Assembly: GCF_001870905.1 (NCBI RefSeq) | Contig: NZ_LNDC01000051.1 | Coordinates: 3,136-43,873, forward strand | Direction: 5' to 3' | Source of the DNA: Geitlerinema sp. PCC 9228 | GTDB taxonomy: Bacteria; Cyanobacteriota; Cyanobacteriia; Cyanobacteriales; PCC-9228 | DNA: 40,738 nucleotides | Part shown: piece by piece, positions 17,097 to 31,472 of the stretch | Numbering within the stretch: the stretch's first letter is position 1 | How the letters are laid out: the number at the start of each line of letters is the position of its first letter | Program-made: the position numbers and the translations under genes | The notes under the pieces: generated by a model | Told to the model about the DNA's origin: nothing | Database searches by the model: none | What the model saw: only the letters and a program-made list of their open reading frames with translations

Positions 17097-18005
17097 ATGA
17101 CGATGCCCAACTTTTTAGTAATTGGTGCTGTCAAATCAGCGACAACATCTGTTTATCACTATCTGAAGCAACATCCAGAAATCTACATGAGCCCTACCAA
17201 AGAAACCAGTTTCTTTGCCATTGAAGGGGATGATTTAGACTTTAATGGACCTGGTTTCCAGCAAACCTATCTTTACAAATGCGGCATCAGAGATTTGGAT
17301 ACTTACCAGGCTGAATTTGCTGGTGTCACCAACGAAAAAGCGATTGGCGAGGCTTCTCCTATCTATCTATATTTTACCCCCAAAGCTCCCCAGCGTATTC
17401 GTCACTATCTCGATCGTCCCAAACTCATTGCTATTTTACGCCATCCTGCCGAGCGTGCTTTTTCCCATTTTCTTAATAATATTCGCGATCGCCGGGAACC
17501 GCTTACTGATTTTGCTGCAGCTTTACAAGATGAAAAACGTCGCCTGCAAGAAAATTGGGGACCTGCTTGGCATTACCAAGAAATCGGTTTCTACTCGCGA
17601 TATCTTCGGGAATATTTTCAGCGTTTTGAACGCGAACAAATTCGGGTGTATTTGTTTGAGGATTTGAAAGCCAATCCCATAGCTACCATGCAAGATATTT
17701 TCCGATTTCTAAAAGTTGATGACACTTTTATTCCCGATTTTTCCGGTAAGTACAATCAATCCTACACTCGCAAAAGCGAACTGTTACACGATATGATTTT
17801 TACCAGCAATCCCCTCAAGGCAGCCGTGAAAACCCTGGTTCCGGCAGGGGTAACCCGCAAACTGGCAACTCGCATCAACAAACAAAATCTCGCCAAACCG
17901 AAATTATCCCCGCAAATTCGCCAGCAACTGGTAGATTTATATCGCGAGGATATTTTACAGCTACAGGATTTGCTGCAACGAGATTTCTCGGCGTGGTTGG
18001 CGTAA
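17097..18005 (+). CDS. Sulfotransferase-domain protein (PAPS-dependent)
   Basis: 302 residues with the fold of PAPS-dependent sulfotransferases related to heparan sulfate N-/O-sulfotransferases. The 5'-phosphosulfate loop is FLVIGAVKSATTSVYHYL at ~5-22 (consensus PKSGTT). The 3'-phosphate-binding segment LIAILRHPAERAFSHF lies near 109-124. The start ATG is preceded by GGAGG at good spacing. Such enzymes transfer sulfate from PAPS to sugar hydroxyls or amines. In this locus the acceptor is probably the exported polysaccharide, which fits the known sulfation of many cyanobacterial exopolysaccharides. The acceptor is inferred from position only. Confidence 0.9.
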   Translation: MTMPNFLVIGAVKSATTSVYHYLKQHPEIYMSPTKETSFFAIEGDDLDFNGPGFQQTYLYKCGIRDLDTYQAEFAGVTNEKAIGEASPIYLYFTPKAPQRIRHYLDRPKLIAILRHPAERAFSHFLNNIRDRREPLTDFAAALQDEKRRLQENWGPAWHYQEIGFYSRYLREYFQRFEREQIRVYLFEDLKANPIATMQDIFRFLKVDDTFIPDFSGKYNQSYTRKSELLHDMIFTSNPLKAAVKTLVPAGVTRKLATRINKQNLAKPKLSPQIRQQLVDLYREDILQLQDLLQRDFSAWLA

Positions 18006-18256: not shown

Positions 18257-19269
18257 ATGCAAACCCAAGCCTCTCCTTCCGTTTTCTCCCAGAGTCGTTC
18301 GTACTTTCAGCAAGTTACCGAACTACTGCAGCTAGAAGCAGAAGCGATCGCACAGACGAGTCAGCGATTGCAACCAGAATCCGTTCAAAGCGTTGTCCAA
18401 CTTCTCAGTACTTGCACGGGGAAAATCGTCCTCACGGGGGTAGGCAAGTCCGGCATCGTTGCCCGCAAAATTGCTGCTACTCTCACCAGCGTAGGCACAG
18501 TGGCCATTTTTCTGCACCCCGCAGAAGCCCTTCACGGGGATTTGGGCATCGTACAATCGGATGATGTGGTAATTGCCCTCAGCAACAGCGGCGAAACCGA
18601 CGAACTGCTGGCGATGCTGCCCTCTTTAAAACAGCGTTGCGTTCCCATTGTTGCCTTGGTGGGGAATCTCGATTCTACCCTAGCGCGACAGGCAAATGTG
18701 GTCCTCGCTGCCACCATCGAACGGGAAGCTTGCCCCCTCAATTTAGCACCCACCACCAGTACCACGGTAGCCATTGCCATTGGCGATGCGATCGCAATGA
18801 CCGTTGCCACCGCCAAAGGCATCACCCCGGAAAAATTTGCCCTCAACCATCCCGCCGGTCGTTTGGGCAAACGCTTAACCCTGCGGGTTGCCGATATCAT
18901 GCATGGGGGAACAGATAATCCTACCATTTCTCCCGATGCCAGTTGGTTGGAGGTGGTTACCGGTATCAGCCAGGGGGGATTGGGGGCTGTCAGCGTTGTT
19001 GACGAACAGCAGCGGCTGTTAGGCATCATTACCGACGGTGACTTGCGTCGGGCTATGGAAACGATTCAGCCAGTAGAACTAGCTAAATTCCAAGCTGGAA
19101 GCATCATGACCCGCAACCCCATTACCGCTATGCGTGAGTGGTTGGCGTACGATGCCTTGCAGGTGATGGAAAACCGACCTTCCCAAATTGCCGTTTTGCC
19201 AGTGGTGGATGCCGACCGCCGCTGCGTTGGTTTGTTACGATTGCACGATATTGCTAGGAGTGGTCTCCT

Positions 19270-19273
<4 letters not shown>
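18257..19273 (+). CDS. kdsD: D-arabinose-5-phosphate isomerase (KdsD/KpsF/GutQ family)
   Basis: Cytoplasmic isomerase that converts D-ribulose 5-phosphate to D-arabinose 5-phosphate, the first dedicated step to Kdo. 338 residues, close to the usual ~325. The N-terminal SIS domain carries GVGKSGIVARKIAATL and the sugar-phosphate motif ALSNSGETDELLAML. The C-terminal half has two CBS domains (~210-270 and ~278-335), as in KdsD and KpsF. Its stop overlaps the kdsB start in GTGA. Capsule clusters such as that of E. coli K1/K5 carry a KpsF paralogue of the same activity; here the full set of Kdo genes follows, which supports the assignment. Confidence 0.93.
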
Positions 19274-21361
<2,088 letters not shown>

Positions 21362-21385
21362 TTTCGTTCTTGGTGGGGAAAGACT

Positions 21386-22807
21386 TTGATAAGTACGCAA
21401 CCGGCTTTCCAAAAGCAAATTCGCCAGCAGCTGCGCCAGTTTCTCACAACGGTGGAAAAACCCATTTTCTCGCCATATTATTTCCCTACCCATCGCTATT
21501 TAACCATAGCAGAACGCTGGCGGTTGCTGGGCAAATATATGTTGGTTCCGGTGACAACTCCATCTTCGCAGGTGGCAGTACCGGAAATTTGTTTTGTGTT
21601 GTATTCTAAGGCTTGCGAACGTATGTTGTTGCCGTTGCTGTTTCATTTGTTACAGCGGCAAGAAACCCAGTTGGGAAGATATAAAATACGTGCGATCGCT
21701 TTAAGTGGGGTTCACGAGTTGAAATTAAATCCCCATGCGATCGCTCATCTAAAAAAACTCGGCTGTTCTGTAGAAACCGACCACTATAGTTTGCTTCGTT
21801 TTTGCCAGCAACCCCAAAACAAATTGGTGGTTTTGTGTTTGGATCACCGCCATCTTTCCCAGTTCCATCGCTGTGGTGTTGATATCGCCGATACGTTAAA
21901 AACTTTTGGCGTCAAAACCCTTTCTATCCAACACGGCGGTACGCGGGAAGATGCCGTGGAAGGCTTATCAACGGCGGCTTCGGATGTGGTTTTGGTGTGG
22001 GGAAAACGGGTTTATCGGCAGTTGGTAGAAACCTACGGCGTCAATGCCAGTCGCTTGCGTTTGGTGGGCAATCCTTTGCACGATGCTTCTGCCCAAATGT
22101 TGCGAGATAGTATCAATTCTAGCAAGCCACAATCGGTTTTACAGGTATTGCGCGATCGCTATCCCTACCTACAAAAACAAATCGAAACCAAAAAAATTAT
22201 CTTGCTCGCTAGCTGCTTGCATAGCGAATATTACGGTTACGAAAACGAACAAGAACTCTACCAACAATATATCCGTCATATCTATCGCAGTTTGGATTTT
22301 TCCCAAGTGGTGTTGTTGGTGAAAATGCATCCTTTAGATAAAAAACATCCCAATCTCTATCAAACAGCCGCCGAGGAACTTATCGATAGGAATGCAATGG
22401 CGATTATCGAACCGGAAGTTACTGAATTGGATATTTACAAACTTCTCTTAATTTCCGATTTATTGCTAACCCGCTGTTCCACTGTAGCCGAGGAAGCTTT
22501 GCTGGCAAACAAAAAAGTGGTTGCCTTCGATCTATTTCCCGAAGGTCCATCAAAAGGATACAAACATTTAGAAGAGTACGGTCGCTATACTACTGCCTAT
22601 GCCAAACCCAAAGAACAGCTAGCCACAGTAATTTCCCAAGCGTTGTTTTCTCCGCCTGACTCTACTAGCGAACACCCATTCCACGAAACAATTGTTCGCG
22701 ATATTACCTATGCTTTGGATGGTCAATCCACAGCCAGAGCGGTCGATACGATCTTACAGGAATTGAATGTAGGAGAATTTCGCAAAACTTCCCTACAAAG
22801 AGAATAA
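21386..22807 (+). CDS. GT-B-fold glycosyltransferase, candidate CMP-sugar (Kdo) transferase
   Basis: 473 residues from a TTG start preceded by GGGGAAAG. No good ATG exists between the kdsC stop and the conserved sequence. The fold looks like GT-B of the capsule/CDP-glycerol-transferase type: an N-terminal half ending in LSIQHGG (His183), then a C-terminal half with an HP motif in VKMHPLDKKHP (His315-Pro316) and an S/T motif in LLTRCSTVAEEAL (Ser365-Thr366). HP and S/T motifs that contact the CMP moiety are known in bacterial sialyl- and Kdo-type transferases. The position 24 bp after kdsC makes CMP-Kdo a plausible donor, but this is an inference; a CDP-glycerol-type or epimerase-like function is an alternative. 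No signal peptide is seen. Confidence 0.8.
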   Translation: MISTQPAFQKQIRQQLRQFLTTVEKPIFSPYYFPTHRYLTIAERWRLLGKYMLVPVTTPSSQVAVPEICFVLYSKACERMLLPLLFHLLQRQETQLGRYKIRAIALSGVHELKLNPHAIAHLKKLGCSVETDHYSLLRFCQQPQNKLVVLCLDHRHLSQFHRCGVDIADTLKTFGVKTLSIQHGGTREDAVEGLSTAASDVVLVWGKRVYRQLVETYGVNASRLRLVGNPLHDASAQMLRDSINSSKPQSVLQVLRDRYPYLQKQIETKKIILLASCLHSEYYGYENEQELYQQYIRHIYRSLDFSQVVLLVKMHPLDKKHPNLYQTAAEELIDRNAMAIIEPEVTELDIYKLLLISDLLLTRCSTVAEEALLANKKVVAFDLFPEGPSKGYKHLEEYGRYTTAYAKPKEQLATVISQALFSPPDSTSEHPFHETIVRDITYALDGQSTARAVDTILQELNVGEFRKTSLQRE

Positions 22808-22825
22808 AAATTCATCAAGCCAACC

Positions 22826-24121
22826 ATGAAAACAGTCGTCCTCATTGATACCAACCACGGCGGTCACCACGTTACATATATGCGATTTTTGGCTAAATCC
22901 TTGCTAGAAATGGATTGCCGGGTGGTGGTTTTGTATCCCCAACCGAGAGAAATTCGCTGGTGGATCAAAGAGCATTCTCCTCAAAGAGCTACCCATTTGT
23001 TTGCCCGGTCGATGCAGGAGTTGCAAAGCCGGCAAATTCCTATTTACGGAAAACTCCCCCGTAGTATGCCGGTGTTCAAGCGACCGCCGCAGTTTGTCGC
23101 GGCAATGGCGCGCTGGCAATACGCTGCCAGTCGAGTGCGTCAGGCTTGCCAGGCTTTGGCTGTGGTTCCCGATTTGGTATTTTTTAACTGGTTGGATAAC
23201 TATTTTAGCTACTATCTGCCTCCTTTGCTTTTAGATATAATTTTTCCTTATAAATGGTCGGGAATTTATTTTCGACCGGGGGAATTTCGTTTTGGCGATC
23301 GCACTTTTCCTATATTCAACTTTCCCCTATACCATGAATTGGTAGCTCGTTCTGGTCGCTGCCAAGCGCTGGCGATTCTCAACGAAGATAGGGTAGCTTC
23401 TTTACAGGAAAAAATTGGGAATCCAGTGTTGTCCTTTCCCGATTTTACCGACGAAGCACCACCAGATTTTACCTATTCTATCGCTCAAGAAATTAAAAAA
23501 CAAGCCGGCGATCGCAAAATTATCGGTATCATTGGCTCCATGAGCAAACGTAAAGGCATGGTAACCTTGCTCGAAGTGGCGCAAAAATCCCTCGGCGAGG
23601 ACTGGTTTTTTGTGTTTGCCGGTCATTTTTCCCAAAAAGCATTCCATCAAGATTTTCGCCACAAACAAAATGAAGACTACTACCGCATTCTTGATATCCT
23701 TAAAAATGGTCTGCCCAATTGTTACTTCCATTTTGACTACATTCCCGACGAACCGCAATTTAATGCGTTAATCAATACCTGCGATATTTTGTTTGCTGCC
23801 TACGAAAATTTCCCCTACAGCAGCAACTTGCTTGCCAAAGCGGCGGCGTTTGAAAAACCCATTGTGGTCAGCCAAGGATATTGTATGGGCAACCGGGTGG
23901 AAACTTTTGAAATGGGAGCAACCATTGAGGAAGGAAACGTGGAACAATGTAAAGAAGCTTTGCATTTTCTCTGCCAGCAATTAGAAAGCGATACCCCGAA
24001 ATTGCGTTTTGATTTTGCGGGATATAGAAATTGCCATTCGGTAGCTAAACTAGATCGTATCTTCCAAACCATTCTTTCCCAGAAAACCACACGTGAGGTT
24101 TCTCAGCCTCTGGCTTTATGA
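22826..24121 (+). CDS. Glycosyltransferase, GT4-like
   Basis: 431 residues with a GT-B fold. The N-terminal domain begins VLIDTNHGGHHVTYM, with the glycine-rich acceptor-side loop. The C-terminal donor domain begins near IIGIIGSMSKRKGMVTLLEVA and includes YIPDEPQFNALINTCDILFAAY and PYSSNLLAKAAAFEKPIVVS. The usual E-x7-E pair is altered: the region reads NFPYSSNLLAKAAA without the two glutamates, so catalysis or donor may differ from classical GT4 enzymes. The next gene overlaps it by ATGA, showing translational coupling. Likely adds a sugar to the lipid-linked precursor of the surface polymer; the specificity is unknown. Confidence 0.85.
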   Translation: MKTVVLIDTNHGGHHVTYMRFLAKSLLEMDCRVVVLYPQPREIRWWIKEHSPQRATHLFARSMQELQSRQIPIYGKLPRSMPVFKRPPQFVAAMARWQYAASRVRQACQALAVVPDLVFFNWLDNYFSYYLPPLLLDIIFPYKWSGIYFRPGEFRFGDRTFPIFNFPLYHELVARSGRCQALAILNEDRVASLQEKIGNPVLSFPDFTDEAPPDFTYSIAQEIKKQAGDRKIIGIIGSMSKRKGMVTLLEVAQKSLGEDWFFVFAGHFSQKAFHQDFRHKQNEDYYRILDILKNGLPNCYFHFDYIPDEPQFNALINTCDILFAAYENFPYSSNLLAKAAAFEKPIVVSQGYCMGNRVETFEMGATIEEGNVEQCKEALHFLCQQLESDTPKLRFDFAGYRNCHSVAKLDRIFQTILSQKTTREVSQPLAL

Positions 24122-25353
24122 AAACGCTGATTCTCAGTACCTCAGATATTGAAGGTGGCGCGGCGCGCGCGGCTTATCGGCTACACCAGGGATTGCTGGC
24201 TGTGGGTGAGGGGTCGCAAATGTTGGTTCGTGCCAAGTATAGCAGCGATCGCCATGTTCTGGCCGAAAAAAGCGTCCTGACCAAGTTAGGACCACCTGCC
24301 AGTCGGTGGCCCCTACGTCGCTATCCCCAACGGGAAAAAACCTTATTTTCCGCGCAATGGTTCCCCGATGCGATCGCGGCGCAGGTAGCACGACTGAATC
24401 CGGATATTGTAAACTTACATTGGGTTTGTAGCGGCTACGTACGCATTGAAACGCTCGCCAAATTGCAAAAGCCGGTGGTGTGGACGTTGCAGGATATGTG
24501 GGCGTTTACCGGTGGTTGCCACTACAGCCAAAATTGCGATCGCTACCAGCAACAATGTGGCAGCTGCCCCCAACTAAAAAGTCACAAGGAACGGGACCTT
24601 TCCCGGAAAATATGGAAAAGGAAACAAAAAGCATGGAAACATGTTAACCTCACCGTGGTCACCCCCAGCCGGTGGATGGCAGAATGCGTACAAGCTAGTT
24701 CTTTGTTAGGCGATCGCCGTATTGCCGTTATTCCCTTTTGTTTAAGTACACAAACCTACCGCCCCATCGATACAAACGTAGCCAGAAACTTATTAGGATT
24801 GCCCCAAGACAAGCATTTGGTTTTGTTTGGGGCAATTTCTGCCACCGCTGACCCCCGTAAAGGCTTTCATTTACTAATACCCGCTTTACAAAAACTCAGC
24901 CAATGGGAATCTCAAGAAAATGTGGAACTGGTGGTTTTTGGAGCTTCCCCACCGGAAAAACCGTTGGATGTGGGCTTCAAAGTTCATTATTTGGGCAATT
25001 TTTCCGATGACCTCTCCTTGGCTTTAGTTTATTCGGCGGCTGATGTCATGGTGGTACCTTCGTTGCAAGAATCATTTGGACAAACAGCTTCGGAAGCTTT
25101 AGCCTGCGGAACGCCAGTGGTGGCTTTTGATACAACTGGGTTGCGGGATATTGTAGATTCCCAACAAAATGGCTATCTAGCCAAACCTTACGAAACCGAA
25201 GATTTGGCCAGGGGAATTGCTTGGATTTTACAGGATCGCGATCGCTACCAACAATTACGCACAAATGCTAGGGAAAAAGCCGAACGCGCCTTTGCCTTGG
25301 AAATTCAAGCCAAACGTTACCTGTCTTTATTCCAGGAATTGCTAGAAAAATAG
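24118..25353 (+). CDS. Glycosyltransferase family 4 (WcaL/WcaC-like)
   Basis: 411 residues, retaining GT4 glycosyltransferase. N-terminus ILSTSDIEGGAARAAYRLH is the classical nucleotide-sugar enzyme opening for this subgroup. In the middle there is a Cys-containing segment (HYSQNCDRYQQQCGSCPQL) that is common in colanic-acid-type WcaC/WcaL relatives. The donor-binding end has the intact E-x7-E motif in LQESFGQTASEALACGTPVV. Start overlaps the stop of the previous gene (ATGA). It closes the run of plus-strand sugar genes that begins with kdsD. Cytoplasmic face of the inner membrane is the expected location. Confidence 0.92.
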   Translation: MKTLILSTSDIEGGAARAAYRLHQGLLAVGEGSQMLVRAKYSSDRHVLAEKSVLTKLGPPASRWPLRRYPQREKTLFSAQWFPDAIAAQVARLNPDIVNLHWVCSGYVRIETLAKLQKPVVWTLQDMWAFTGGCHYSQNCDRYQQQCGSCPQLKSHKERDLSRKIWKRKQKAWKHVNLTVVTPSRWMAECVQASSLLGDRRIAVIPFCLSTQTYRPIDTNVARNLLGLPQDKHLVLFGAISATADPRKGFHLLIPALQKLSQWESQENVELVVFGASPPEKPLDVGFKVHYLGNFSDDLSLALVYSAADVMVVPSLQESFGQTASEALACGTPVVAFDTTGLRDIVDSQQNGYLAKPYETEDLARGIAWILQDRDRYQQLRTNAREKAERAFALEIQAKRYLSLFQELLEK

Positions 25354-25481: not shown

Positions 25482-28400
25482 ATGCTGACCGTCGCTGGCT
25501 ACCAAGAATGCCATCCCATCTACACCGGCAATCGCACTTTCGTCTATCGGGCTATTCGCCAGACAGACCATCGAACGGCAATCGTCAAAGTATTACGCAA
25601 TTCCCAGCCTAGTTTCGACGAACTGCTTCAATTTCGCAATCAGTATGCCATTGCCCGGCAGCTAGACCATCCCGGTATTGTTCGCCCCCTCGCCCTGGAA
25701 TCCTACGGCAACAGTTACGCCCTGATTATGCCCGACGAGGGATTGGTTTCTTTGAGTCAGTACTGGTCAAAAAGCGATCGCCATCTCACCACCTTTCTCT
25801 CCATCGCCATTCAAATGGCAGATATTCTTCACTACCTCACCACCCAGCGCGTCATTCACAAAGACATCAAACCCAGCAATATCCTCATTCATCCAGTAAC
25901 CGGTCAAATTCAACTCATTGACTTCAGCATCGCTACACTGCTACCCAAAGAACGCCAGCAACTTACCAATCCCAACGTTTTGGAAGGAACCCTCGCTTAT
26001 ATCTCTCCCGAACAAACCGGACGTATGAACCGAGGCATCGACTATCGCACCGATTTTTATTCTTTGGGAATCACCTTATTTGAACTGCTCACGAGAGAAC
26101 TTCCCTTTACCAGTACAGATCCCATGGACCTGGTACACAGCCACCTGGCGCGTCCGATAGAATTTCCCCACGCCAGCCAGCGAAACCTTCCCCAACCCTT
26201 GCCAGCCATAATTCGGAAGCTGACCGCCAAAAATGCTGAAGACCGCTACCAAAGTGCCCTGGGGCTGAAATACGACCTAGAAATATGCCAGCAACAGTTG
26301 CAAGCCACCGGCGAAATTGCCTCCTTTGAAATTGCCCAACGGGATAGTTGCGATCGCTTTTTGATTCCCGAAAAACTTTACGGGCGAGAAAAAGAGGTAC
26401 AAATCCTGCTAGAAGCCTTCAACCGTGTTAGCGAAGGGCAAACGGAACTGATGCTGGTCGCTGGTTTTTCCGGGATTGGCAAAACCGCTGCCATCAACGA
26501 AATTCATAAGCCTATCACTCGAAAAAAAGGATTTTTTATCCAAGGAAAATTCGACCAATTCAATCGCAATGTCCCTTTCTCTGGTTTTGTGCAAGCTTTC
26601 CGCGGCTCGATCGAACAGCTACTGTCAGAACCCGATGTGGATCTAGCTGCTTGGAAGGAGAAAATTTTAGCAGCCGTGGGAGAGAGCGGTCGAGTTATTA
26701 TTGATGTAATCCCAGAGCTGACAAAAATTATTGGAGAACAACCGGCCGTACCAGAACTATCAGGGGACGCCGCCCGGAATCGCTTCAACTTGCTTTTTCG
26801 TAGATTTGTGCGCGTTTTTACTGCGCCAGAACACCCCTTGGTTCTATTTTTAGACGACTTGCAATGGGCGGATGCGTCATCGCTGGCGTTGATGAAACTG
26901 TTGGTCGGCCCTGCGGCATCGGGATATTTATTGGTGTTGGGTGCCTATCGAGATAACGAAGTATTTCCGGGACATCCGTTGCTTTTAACCTTTAATGAAA
27001 TTGAAAGGCAGGGAACGAAAGTTAGTAAAATAGCCCTATCCCCCTTGGAAGAATCCGATACCACCCAACTGATTGCCGATACTTTGCTGTGTTCGCCAAA
27101 AGCTGCCACCTCTCTAGCGCAGTTAGTGTATCAAAAAACCCAGGGCAATCCTTTCTTTATTACCCAATTTTTGCAAGGACTTTATGAAGAAGGATATATC
27201 TACTTCGATTTGACGTCAGGTTCCTGGCAGTGTGATTTGGCGCAAGTGCGGCAGTCGGCTTTAACCGATAATGTGGTGGATTTTTTGGTTGGGCGGTTGC
27301 AGAAGCTGCCGGAAACCACTCAGGAAGTATTGCGTCTGGCAGCTTGTATTGGCAATCGCTTTGACTTGGAGACCCTGACAGTGGTTTGCGATCGCGATGG
27401 GGAAGAGGTAGCCTGGAATTTGTGGTCTGCTTTGCAAGAAGGGTTGGTGGTGCCCGAAAACGAGACATACAAATTCTTTCAAACAAGCGATCGCATCGGA
27501 GAAAAATCAAAAGACCTCACGATTTACTACCGTTTTCTCCACGATCGCATCCAGCAAGCTGCTTACGCACTCATTCCAAGAAACCAACAGGAAGCCACCC
27601 ACTACCGCATTGGGCGATTGCTGTTGCAGAACCTCTCTCCAGACGAAAGGGAAGAACAAATTTTCAATGTAGTCACCCAGCTAAATCAGGGCATTTCCCG
27701 CTTGGAAACCCCGTGGGAACGAGAGGAACTCGCCCAGCTGAACCTTCTTGCCTGTCGCAAAGCTAAAGCCGCTACCGCCTATCAAGCCAGTCGCGAGTAT
27801 GCCCATCAAGGATTATCGTTGTTAGGAGAAACTCCTTGGTCGCACCAATACGAACTAACACGTACCTTATACGAACTCGCTGCGGAACTGGCTGCTTTGT
27901 GTGGCGACCGGGAAACCATGGAACAGTTGGCAGGGGAAATTATTGCACACACCCACTCCTTGCCAGAACAGGCAACCATTTACCGCATTCAAATCCAAGC
28001 TTACACCTGTCAGGGAGAATTTGCCACCGCCATCACCCTTGCCCGGGAATTTTTGCAGCAGTTCGATATTATCTTCCCGGAAAATCCAACGCCAGAGGAT
28101 ATTCAAAAGAGCATTGCCCAAGCCAATCAACTGCTTGCCGGTCGCCATATTGAAAGTCCGATCGATCTGCCGTGGATGGTAGATCCAGAAAAAATTGCCA
28201 TTGTAGAGATTGCCAACAGTATTATACCTGCTACCTTCCTAACCAGACCCTTGCTGTTTCCCTTAGTGACCTCTTTATCAACTCAGCTATCCATTCAACA
28301 TGGTCATACTTCCGATTCTCCATTTACGTATGCAACCTATGGGTTGACTCTATTAGGTGCTCAATTTTCTGATGTAAAAACGAGTGCTCAATTCGGTCAC

Positions 28401-31400
28401 CTCGCCCTGCAACTACTCCCCAAACTAGAAGCAAAAACAGCCAAACCGAAGACTTTAATGGTCGTTGGCTCGTATCTTATCCATCGTACTTCTCATATGC
28501 AAGAAACTCTGCCTCTGTTACGAGAAGCTTATACCAAAAGTTTGGAAGTTGGCGATTTGGGATTTGCCGGATATAGTGCTTCTAGTTTGTGTCGCGACTC
28601 TTTTTGGTGCGGCCGCGAACTTACTGCTTTAGAAAAAGAAACTCGTGATTACTACCAGGGATTATTGCAATTAAATCAGCATACAGCCGCTACTTATTGT
28701 TATATTTACTGGCAATTGCTATTAAATTTATTGGGCAAGACAGAAAATCCAATGATTTTATCTGGAGAAGCTCTTCAAGAAGCGGCATTTTTGGAGCGAT
28801 TGCATGGTGCCAACGACCTTTATGGGCTATTTTTGTTTCATTCATCCAAATTGCTGCTTGGTTATTGGTTCCGGGAAATGGCAGCAGCCCGGGAGCAAGC
28901 GCTTGCATGCAGAAGATATTTTCAAGGCATTGGAGGACCCACGGCCATTCCTGCATTTTATTTTTACGATGCCTTGAGCCTACTCGCAACCTCTACTGGA
29001 ACCAGTGAGGAATTGCAGCTGGTAGAGCGCAGCCAAGTTCCTCTGCAACGGGATTGGGCACATTACGCTCCTATGAATTACCAGCATAAAGCCGATCTAG
29101 TGGCAGCAGAAAAATCCCGAGTTTTGGGAGACAAAGCCAATGCGATCGACTTGTACGATCGAGCGATCGCAGGTGCCAAGGAAAACCAATTCATCCAAGA
29201 AGAAGCCTTAGCCAACGAACTGGCCGCACGATTCTATCTGGATTGGGAAAAAGAAAAAATTGCCACCACTTACATGCAAAATGCCTATCTTGGCTACGAA
29301 CGTTGGGGTGCCCAAGCCAAAACCCAGCATCTCGCCACCCACTACCCCCAATTGCTAGCTCCCATCTTACCATCAACCGAGACAACCACCGCACCTACAT
29401 CAACGTCTATCGCGGTTTCTATTTCTCACGCCTCCCAAAATTCGAGTTCCGATACCAACACGGCGCTAGACCTCACAAGCATTCTCAAAACCTCCCAAGC
29501 CATTTCCAGTGAGTTGGCTCTCGATCGATTACTTGCTTTGCTCGTCGAAACGTCGGTTAAAAATGCGGGAGCGCAACGGGGCGTCTTTATCCGCGTTGTG
29601 GGCGAAAAACTGCTGGTAGAAGCCATTCAAAATAGCCATACGGAACCTCCACAGGTGCGACAAGCCATTCCAGTTGACCAATATACCAGCCAACTACCGC
29701 TTCGCGTTATTAACTACGTCGCGCGAACCCAAGAAACAGTCTTGCTCAATGAAGCTAGTGACGGGGAAGATTTCGCTACTGACCCTTATATCCAACACAA
29801 CCAACCCCAATCTTTACTGTGCGCGCCGTTGGTCAATCAAGGCAAACTGCAAGGATTAATTTATTTGGAAAATCGCCTAACCAAAGGGGCTTTTACAGAA
29901 AATCGCCTAGAAATTTGGCAAATTTTGGCAGCACAGGCAGTAATTTCCTTGGAAAATGCCTACCTGTATCAACAATTGCAAGACTATTCTCGCACGTTAG
30001 AAGAAAAAGTTGAAGCACGCACCGCAGAACTTGCCGTCGCCAAGGAACAAGCGGATACTGCCAACCAAGCCAAAAGCGAATTTTTGGCTGCCATGAGCCA
30101 CGAATTGCGTACGCCGCTCAACGGAATTTTAGGTTATGCACAAATTTTACAGCGATCGCAAGAAATTTCTGCACGCGATCGCCAAGGGGCAGATATTATT
30201 CACGAATGCGGCTCCCATTTGCTTACCTTGATTAACGATATTTTAGACCTATCCAAAATCGAAGCCCAGAAAATGGAGCTGCATCCCAGCGATTTTCAAC
30301 TACCTTCTTTTCTCCAGGGTGTGGTTCAGATGTGTCGTATCAAAGCCCAACAGAAAAGCATTGCTTTTCGCTACCTACCCGACGAGCAACTACCAGAAAT
30401 GGTGGCAGGTGACGCCAAACGATTGCGACAGATTCTGGTCAACTTATTGGGCAATGCTATCAAATTTACCGAGCGCGGAACCGTTACCCTCCAAGTCAAC
30501 ATATTAGCATCTTCTCAAACAGATAAAGACCATCCAACAGCCAAAATTCGCTTTCAAGTTCAAGACACTGGCGTGGGGATTCCAGAAGCAGAAATCCAAA
30601 AAATCTTCCAACCCTTTGAACAAGCTTCGCCTACCAAGAAAAATACCCAAGGAACGGGATTGGGATTGCCTTTAAGTCAAAAATTTGCACAATTAATGGG
30701 CAGTACTATTCAAGTTCGTAGCATTCCCCAGCACGGCAGTACTTTCTGGTTTGATTTGATTTTGCCGGTGGTGGAAACAACAGCCAAAACCGATTCTACA
30801 GAGTTACGCCAAATTATTGGCTATCAAGGAAAAATACGGCGAATTCTGGTAGCCGATGCCCGCTGGGAAAACCGTACCGTTCTTATCAATTGGTTGCAAC
30901 CTTTGGGATTTGAAATTGTGGAAGCTGCTGATGCCCCAACCCTATGGCAAAAAGCGCAAGATTTGCCCCCAGATTTGCTGATAACCGATACATCAGTATC
31001 GCCCCAAAACGATTGGGATTGGATTCGACGACTGCGTTGCTCGCCAGAGTTTTCTCAAGTACCAATTGTAATTTCTTCTGCTCGGGTTTTTGCAAGCGAT
31101 CGCGATCGTTTTCGCCAAGCCGGCAGCGATGATTTTTTACCCAAACCGATCGATTTATCGGAGTTGTTGCAAAAATTGGCATACCATTTGGACTTGCAAT
31201 GGGTCGAGCGGGAAGCAAGTACCCAACCACAAACAGTAGAACCGCAAAGGCTGGCGTTGCCTCCCAGCAACGAACTACAATATTTGCAAGAACTAGTACG
31301 TAAAGGTAGTTTGAGAAGAGTTGAAAAATACGTCCACCACTTGCAAAATATCAACCCCAATCTAGCCGATTTTACCCAAAAAGTTACTCGGCTAGCCAGT

Positions 31401-31472
31401 CGGTTTCAAGAAGCTGAGTTGCTGGAATTTTTGCAACATTGTCGCCAAACCAATGCGGAAAATTTAGATTGA
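25482..31472 (+). CDS. Giant hybrid sensor kinase: STK-like, AAA ATPase, GAF, histidine kinase, receiver
   Basis: 1996 residues, a cyanobacterial multi-domain signalling protein. (1) Ser/Thr-kinase-like domain ~1-270 with Lys in AIVKVL, catalytic loop [12 protein letters not shown] (HKD at 126-128 instead of HRD) and IDFSIAT instead of DFG. (2) AAA/NACHT-like ATPase from ~300, P-loop AGFSGIGKT near 327-336, Walker [15 protein letters not shown]. (3) A long helical, TPR-like region ~740-1310. (4) GAF domain ~1326-1490. (5) HisKA with phospho-acceptor His1540 in [19 protein letters not shown] and HATPase_c with [11 protein letters not shown] and GTGLGLPLS. (6) Receiver ~1785-1905 with candidate acceptor Asp1836 in [10 protein letters not shown]; the N-terminal acidic pair is reduced to one Asp (LVADARW). 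A short helical tail follows. There are no membrane segments, so it is cytoplasmic. Its ligand and output are unknown; it lies directly after the polysaccharide genes with its own spacer. Confidence 0.93.

Follow-up and report, generated by a model that had tools for sequence, protein, structure and literature searches.

GTX, the working name used here for a protein encoded directly 3' of the genes for CMP-Kdo synthesis in a cyanobacterial surface-polysaccharide locus, is probably a CMP-Kdo transferase that places Kdo on a surface glycan, a reading which draws on the gene context and the residues of the predicted donor pocket and not on the fold. The window, i.e. the whole stretch of DNA that was analysed, comprises 40,738 nucleotides from Geitlerinema sp. 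PCC 9228, and its relevant features are collected in Table 1.

Table 1. Genes and motif codons of the kds-GTX region, with positions in the window
Feature	Position	Strand	Product or predicted role	Support
kdsD	18257..19273	+	arabinose-5-phosphate isomerase (KpsF/GutQ family)	TIGR00393 above cut-off
kdsB	19270..20004	+	CMP-Kdo synthetase	TIGR00466 above cut-off
kdsA	20004..20852	+	Kdo-8-phosphate synthase	TIGR01362 above cut-off
kdsC	20849..21361	+	Kdo-8-phosphate phosphatase	TIGR01670 above cut-off
GTX	21386..22807	+	candidate CMP-Kdo transferase, GT-B, 473 aa	
Q182-H183-G184-G185 codons	21929..21940	+	QHG motif; His183 a candidate base by analogy	in 7/7 sequences covering the site
K313-M314-H315-P316 codons	22322..22333	+	(K/R)xHP; predicted to hold cytosine and phosphate	8/8 aligned sequences
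S365-T366-V367-A368-E369-E370 codons	22478..22495	+	predicted contacts to CMP phosphate, base and ribose	8/8 aligned sequences
GT4a	22826..24121	+	GT4-like glycosyltransferase, 3' of GTX in most relatives	Glycos_transf_1 (Pfam) above cut-off
GT4b	24118..25353	+	GT4 glycosyltransferase	Pfam and NCBIfam

The identities of the four kds genes were established with NCBIfam profiles, each product exceeding the cut-off for one model or more. These genes overlap or abut one another; GTX begins at a TTG codon after a gap of only 24 bp, just as an earlier sequence-only reading had it, and GT4a and GT4b follow at once. This arrangement suggests that 18257-25353 constitutes a single operon of the form kdsD-B-A-C-GTX-GT4a-GT4b. 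Family models identify a sulfotransferase-like gene and a gene for a PglK/MsbA-like ABC transporter 5' of the operon, and further upstream, on the opposite strand, are encoded a Wza-like exporter, an AAA ATPase at the position of Wzc and a WecG/TagA-like transferase. The sulfotransferase-like gene (17097-18005), located just 5' of the kds genes, hints at a sulfated, Kdo-containing glycan. On the 3' side of the operon, positions 25482-31472 code for a protein of 1996 residues in which Ser/Thr kinase, AAA, GAF and histidine kinase domains occur together with a response-regulator domain.

A scan of contigs for GTX homologues recovered seven loci, L004 to L010. The cyanobacterial set comprises eight loci, namely the window, L002/L007 (counted once, as their match coordinates are identical), L003/L038 (genome G036), L004, L005, L006, L008 and L009, and seven of these are readable because L009 starts inside the GTX gene. 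In all seven, kds genes are found within about 3 kb of GTX, which bears out the earlier proposal that GTX belongs to the operon for CMP-Kdo. The precise arrangement varies: kdsC is immediately 5' of GTX in the window, L005, L007 and L008, kdsA takes this place in L006, kdsC and one further gene precede GTX in L038, and kdsA and kdsC lie 3' of it in L004. Unmodified kdsD-B-A-C sets adjoin GTX in the window, L005 and L007. The single non-cyanobacterial relative, L010 from Christiangramia (31% identity), has NeuB 15 kb away and kdsB on a different contig, and Kdo may accordingly not be the donor throughout the family.

GT4a is likewise retained after the kds genes and GTX in seven of the eight cyanobacterial loci (window counted), which could be taken to mean that Kdo transfer falls to GT4a, or to an unlisted enzyme, and that GTX is a glycosyltransferase acting on this glycan with an NDP-sugar. 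The fold of GTX, which is most like those of UDP-binding enzymes, can be cited in the same sense. Against this, GT4a matches the GT4-type Glycos_transf_1 profile above its cut-off, and the known members of that family, to our knowledge, use NDP-sugars; in L003 the 4.1 kb surrounding GTX gave no GT4a match; and it is GTX itself that carries the KxHP and STVxxE motifs. We therefore regard this assignment of roles as unlikely.

To return to GTX as the candidate Kdo transferase, its donor pocket was analysed in an alignment of the window protein with relatives at 31-55% identity to it (eight sequences in all). The His315-Pro316 and Ser365-Thr366 pairs noted in the sequence-only reading are indeed at those positions, and the enclosing KMHP and S-T-V-x-E-E motifs occur in all eight sequences and, in the form of KRHP and STVLEE, in the more distant L003, indicating that their presence is not a matter of chance. 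N229, H232, D233, E281 and R363 are also invariant. In KrkA, a Kdo transferase of solved structure, the accessible text describes H227, P228, S271, S272, V273 and E276 as contacting CMP (PMC12887879); the equivalents in GTX are H315, P316, S365, T366, V367 and E370, with identical spacing within each group. According to the same text, sialyltransferases and retaining Kdo transferases have (K/R)xHP in common (PMC12887879). The earlier view of these motifs as a CMP-binding arrangement thus holds to the extent that the match with KrkA points to a pocket of the cytidine type, but the arrangement is not exclusive to sialyl- and Kdo-transferring enzymes. A cytidine-nucleotide-type pocket in GTX is supported at the level of sequence. 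We dropped the DGxxxxR element of GTX as evidence, since WecB carries a similar one. Motifs typical of other groups were sought in the same alignment: the QxxxD nucleophile motif of retaining Kdo enzymes is present in at most three of the eight sequences in any column, the D/E-D/E-G of bacterial sialyltransferases (GT38/GT52/GT80) in at most two, and the SRRT motif of KdoT and the WHG motif of TagF in none.

In the reaction that we propose, the four upstream enzymes would make CMP-beta-Kdo and GTX, as a GT-B enzyme, would take it as donor. The nucleotide is predicted to lie between P316 and V367, its phosphate contacted by H315, S365 and T366 and its ribose by E370. Given that the QxxxD motif is not conserved, the reaction is likely to be inverting and to yield an alpha-Kdo product. 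The acceptor might be deprotonated by H183 of the QHG motif, or else by D153 or E281; the likely base of TagF is described as His444 within WHG (PMC11666461), and it is by likeness to this motif that H183 is a candidate. GTX would attach Kdo to the growing surface glycan, which GT4a and GT4b probably extend.

To place GTX among known families we turned to sequence profiles. Neither WaaA (GT30, PF04413) nor KpsC/KpsS (Capsule_synth, PF05159) gave a Pfam match to GTX at E <= 1, and Capsule_synth weakly matches two of the eight family members (best E 6.7e-4), in keeping with the earlier statement that GTX is not an evident WaaA, KpsC or KpsS. Judged by such profiles, GTX falls in no Kdo-transferase family tested here. 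Among NCBIfam models NF046086 ranks first (E 5.6e-13, residues 196-458); this domain model, named 'BFO_1060 family glycosyltransferase', is also the best one for seven of the eight family members (best E 1.1e-18); BFO_1060, going by its locus prefix, is presumably the orthologue of GtfS. At 48.7 bits (44.4 in the genome search) GTX is below the 200-bit cut-off of this model. In profile-profile comparisons the GTX family matched the eight above-cut-off NF046086 members with a probability of 93.9% (E 1.6e-7), E. coli WecB with 80.8% (E 1.3e-5) and two other groups with 24% and 9%. A PDB search with the GTX profile recovered the TagF-like Cps3D at E 0.0039; with the single GTX sequence there were chance-level matches at most. 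A tblastn search of a plasmid collection gave no GTX match.

An AlphaFold2 prediction from the eight sequences yielded a GT-B model (mean pLDDT 81.1, pTM 0.75). Its best whole-fold matches are UDP-GlcNAc 2-epimerases (1f6d_D, Z 21.4, rmsd 4.9, 333 residues aligned), with TarL lower among the matches (8va1_B, Z 18.1, rmsd 5.2, 369 aligned), and the C-terminal domain alone (pLDDT 74.5, pTM 0.73) brought the same kinds to the top. UDP-GlcNAc 2-epimerases, TagF/TarL and general GT-B enzymes prevail in both searches. GT38, GT52, GT99 and GT107, the families named for comparison in the sequence-only reading, and GT140 are absent from the matches listed for the whole fold and for the C-terminal domain, as is the reduced, modified GT-B fold of WbbB, KpsC and KrkA, a result that excludes nothing. 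Given what heads these matches, the fold leaves the donor of GTX undecided.

Two alternatives follow from these similarities. That GTX is a UDP-HexNAc 2-epimerase-like enzyme would accord with the top fold matches and with the Epimerase_2 profile (PF02350), which matches all eight family members (best 7e-11), the window protein among them at E 6.5e-5; its 22.4 bits are nevertheless under the Pfam cut-off of 30.6. Moreover, none of R10, K15, D95, E117, E131 and H213, which we take to be the catalytic residues of WecB, is conserved in GTX in a MAFFT alignment (uncertain over its N-terminal half), and WecB has SGG where GTX has (C/A)ST and is without KxHP. We consider an epimerase-like activity very improbable. 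The other alternative is that GTX is a TagF/CpsA-like transferase of a CDP-polyol or sugar phosphate, for which Kdo would be the acceptor, as in capsule transition transferases acting on a Kdo linker. TagF and TarL are similar to GTX in being GT-B enzymes with a cytidine nucleotide as donor, and the QHG of GTX is at the place of their WHG; their profile, Glyphos_transf (PF04464), matches GTX at E 3e-4 and six of eight relatives (best 2.2e-6); and, in addition to the Cps3D and fold matches, QHG is reported in the accessible text of PMC11666461 as a motif of GT-B hexose-phosphate transferases. Set against this are a Glyphos_transf score under the Pfam cut-off (20.3 bits versus 22.1), the missing WHG, the finding that none of the eight genomes searched has TagD above cut-off, and the fact that no gene for making a CDP-polyol is annotated near GTX. 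Such an activity strikes us as quite unlikely. With both profiles below cut-off and the WecB residues not conserved in the uncertain alignment, the outcome named as refuting in the sequence-only reading, a clear match to a CDP-glycerol or UDP-sugar enzyme family whose catalytic residues are retained, did not arise.

The reading as a CMP-Kdo transferase also depends on which other enzymes could attach Kdo in the same organisms. We searched the seven cyanobacterial genomes with GTX (G000, G036, G215 and G387-G390) and, as an eighth, G386, for two kinds of Kdo transferase, WaaA and KpsC/KpsS. WaaA is absent at E <= 0.01 from all seven cyanobacterial genomes and present in G386. Capsule_synth is not found above its cut-off in the seven, except in GTX itself: the sole such match (G388:C489:2110-2334, 20.2 bits versus a cut-off of 20) falls inside the GTX homologue, judging from where it lies with respect to kdsB in L006, and a weaker match in G387 is below the cut-off. 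G036 has one CTP_transf_3 protein, the CMP-sugar synthetase KdsB, and no NeuB. With KdsB alone and no NeuB, Kdo is the only CMP-ulosonate evident in G036, if GTX uses one.

The NF046086 model also captures proteins from a nonulosonate context. We surveyed 247 genomes of Bacteroidota, the phylum of G386 and of Christiangramia, at E <= 1e-10 and found matches in 18, eight of them above cut-off. Each of the 18 has NeuB as well as a gene for a CMP-sugar synthetase on its contig at a distance of no more than 23 kb, a count that covers this one model only, glycosyltransferase genes generally clustering in such loci, and that mixes related groups, six of the ten below-cut-off matches forming a separate group with a consensus lacking HP. 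For the eight above-cut-off members the distance is at most 15.6 kb to NeuB and 17.6 kb to the gene for a CMP-sugar synthetase, and in L022 a PseB gene directly follows one of them. The closest described relatives of GTX thus sit where CMP-nonulosonate transferases would be expected. The separate group (L030, L031, L033, L034, L036 and L037), weakly NF046086-like, beside NeuB and CMP-sugar synthetase genes and with a GST motif, might represent further nonulosonate transferases.

At L004 (6082-9940, in a MAG of Geitlerinema) a four-gene cassette immediately precedes the GTX homologue. It encodes a KdsB-like synthetase (41% identity to the window KdsB), a fusion of a ribulose-phosphate 3-epimerase with CBS domains of the KdsD type, a protein resembling DAHP synthase and a HAD protein of the beta-phosphoglucomutase type. 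This cassette might serve to make a different CMP-activated 3-deoxy-ulosonate. Together with the neighbourhoods of the NF046086 members and the NeuB near L010, it could be read to mean that GTX transfers a CMP-ulosonate other than Kdo, such as a modified Kdo, a 3-deoxy-heptulosonate or a nonulosonate. This is rather unlikely in light of the CMP-sugar repertoire of G036 and the unmodified kds sets beside GTX in three loci.

Comparison with characterized systems helps define what is distinctive about GTX as the proposed Kdo transferase. It shares GT-B and the CMP contacts (K/R)xHP and S-S/T-V-xx-E with the retaining WbbB (GT99), KpsC (GT107) and KrkA (GT140), but differs in not conserving their QxxxD. 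KdoT of Acinetobacter, an ELM1-like protein, is described in the accessible text as a recent inverting GT-B Kdo transferase distinct from WaaA (PMC12856342); likened by description, the proposed GTX is similarly neither WaaA nor KpsC/KpsS, of GT-B type and inverting, but its family is without SRRT. GtfS and TFUB4_00887 of T. forsythia have an HP motif as in GTX and a CMP-sugar acid donor encoded in their own cluster, and are reported to carry D/E-D/E-G and DXD (PMC6388019), the former of which is not conserved in GTX; nonulosonate transferases of this bacterium are also treated in PMC6120980. The NF046086 family has regions corresponding to the KxHP, ST-xx-E and DGxxxxR of GTX, but occurs in a nonulosonate context as against the Kdo context of GTX, and falls far short of including it by score. 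The arguments are evenly balanced as to whether GTX founds a new family of inverting CMP-Kdo transferases, built on an epimerase/TagF-like GT-B scaffold and sister to the CMP-nonulosonate transferases. What we count against the CMP-Kdo reading itself is the preference of the fold, the context of L010, the near-equal conservation of GT4a beside the kds genes and the small share of kdsB-carrying genomes that have GTX.

GTX is rare. Searched with the protein, 386 genomes from the phylum to which the window belongs gave three carriers, the window's genome among them, and a more sensitive profile search of the same genomes again found three, with no extra members. kdsB is present in 211 of the 386, most of them listed as belonging to the same phylum only and not to the same class; three of these 211 have GTX as against none of the other 175, a contrast that is weak as presence/absence statistics. 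Most kdsB carriers must hence use other Kdo transferases. The genome of Synechococcus elongatus has kdsB over the cut-off and an NF046086 match below it.

Cyanobacteria have been described as having only lpxA, lpxC, lpxD and lpxB and an LPS without Kdo, as far as the accessible text states (PMC3087551). A phylum-wide survey concludes, in its accessible part, that cyanobacterial EPS either has no poly-Kdo linker or that another mechanism serves to transfer Kdo (PMC4594306), and a review mentions 1.5% KDO in the LPS of Anacystis nidulans, and KDO in a few others too (PMC4515613). Our literature search, with most subscription papers outside it, found no description of a cyanobacterial Kdo transferase or of Kdo in S. 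elongatus. GTX probably fills a gap in bacteria lacking every Kdo-attaching enzyme searched for, i.e. WaaA and KpsC/KpsS. If the proposal is correct, it would explain how some cyanobacteria without these enzymes put Kdo on LPS or exopolysaccharide, would cover the Kdo reported chemically in Anacystis nidulans, and would give the small set of known Kdo transferases one more scaffold. A dedicated Kdo transferase beside kdsC would also make the question of cyanobacterial Kdo testable in a model organism.
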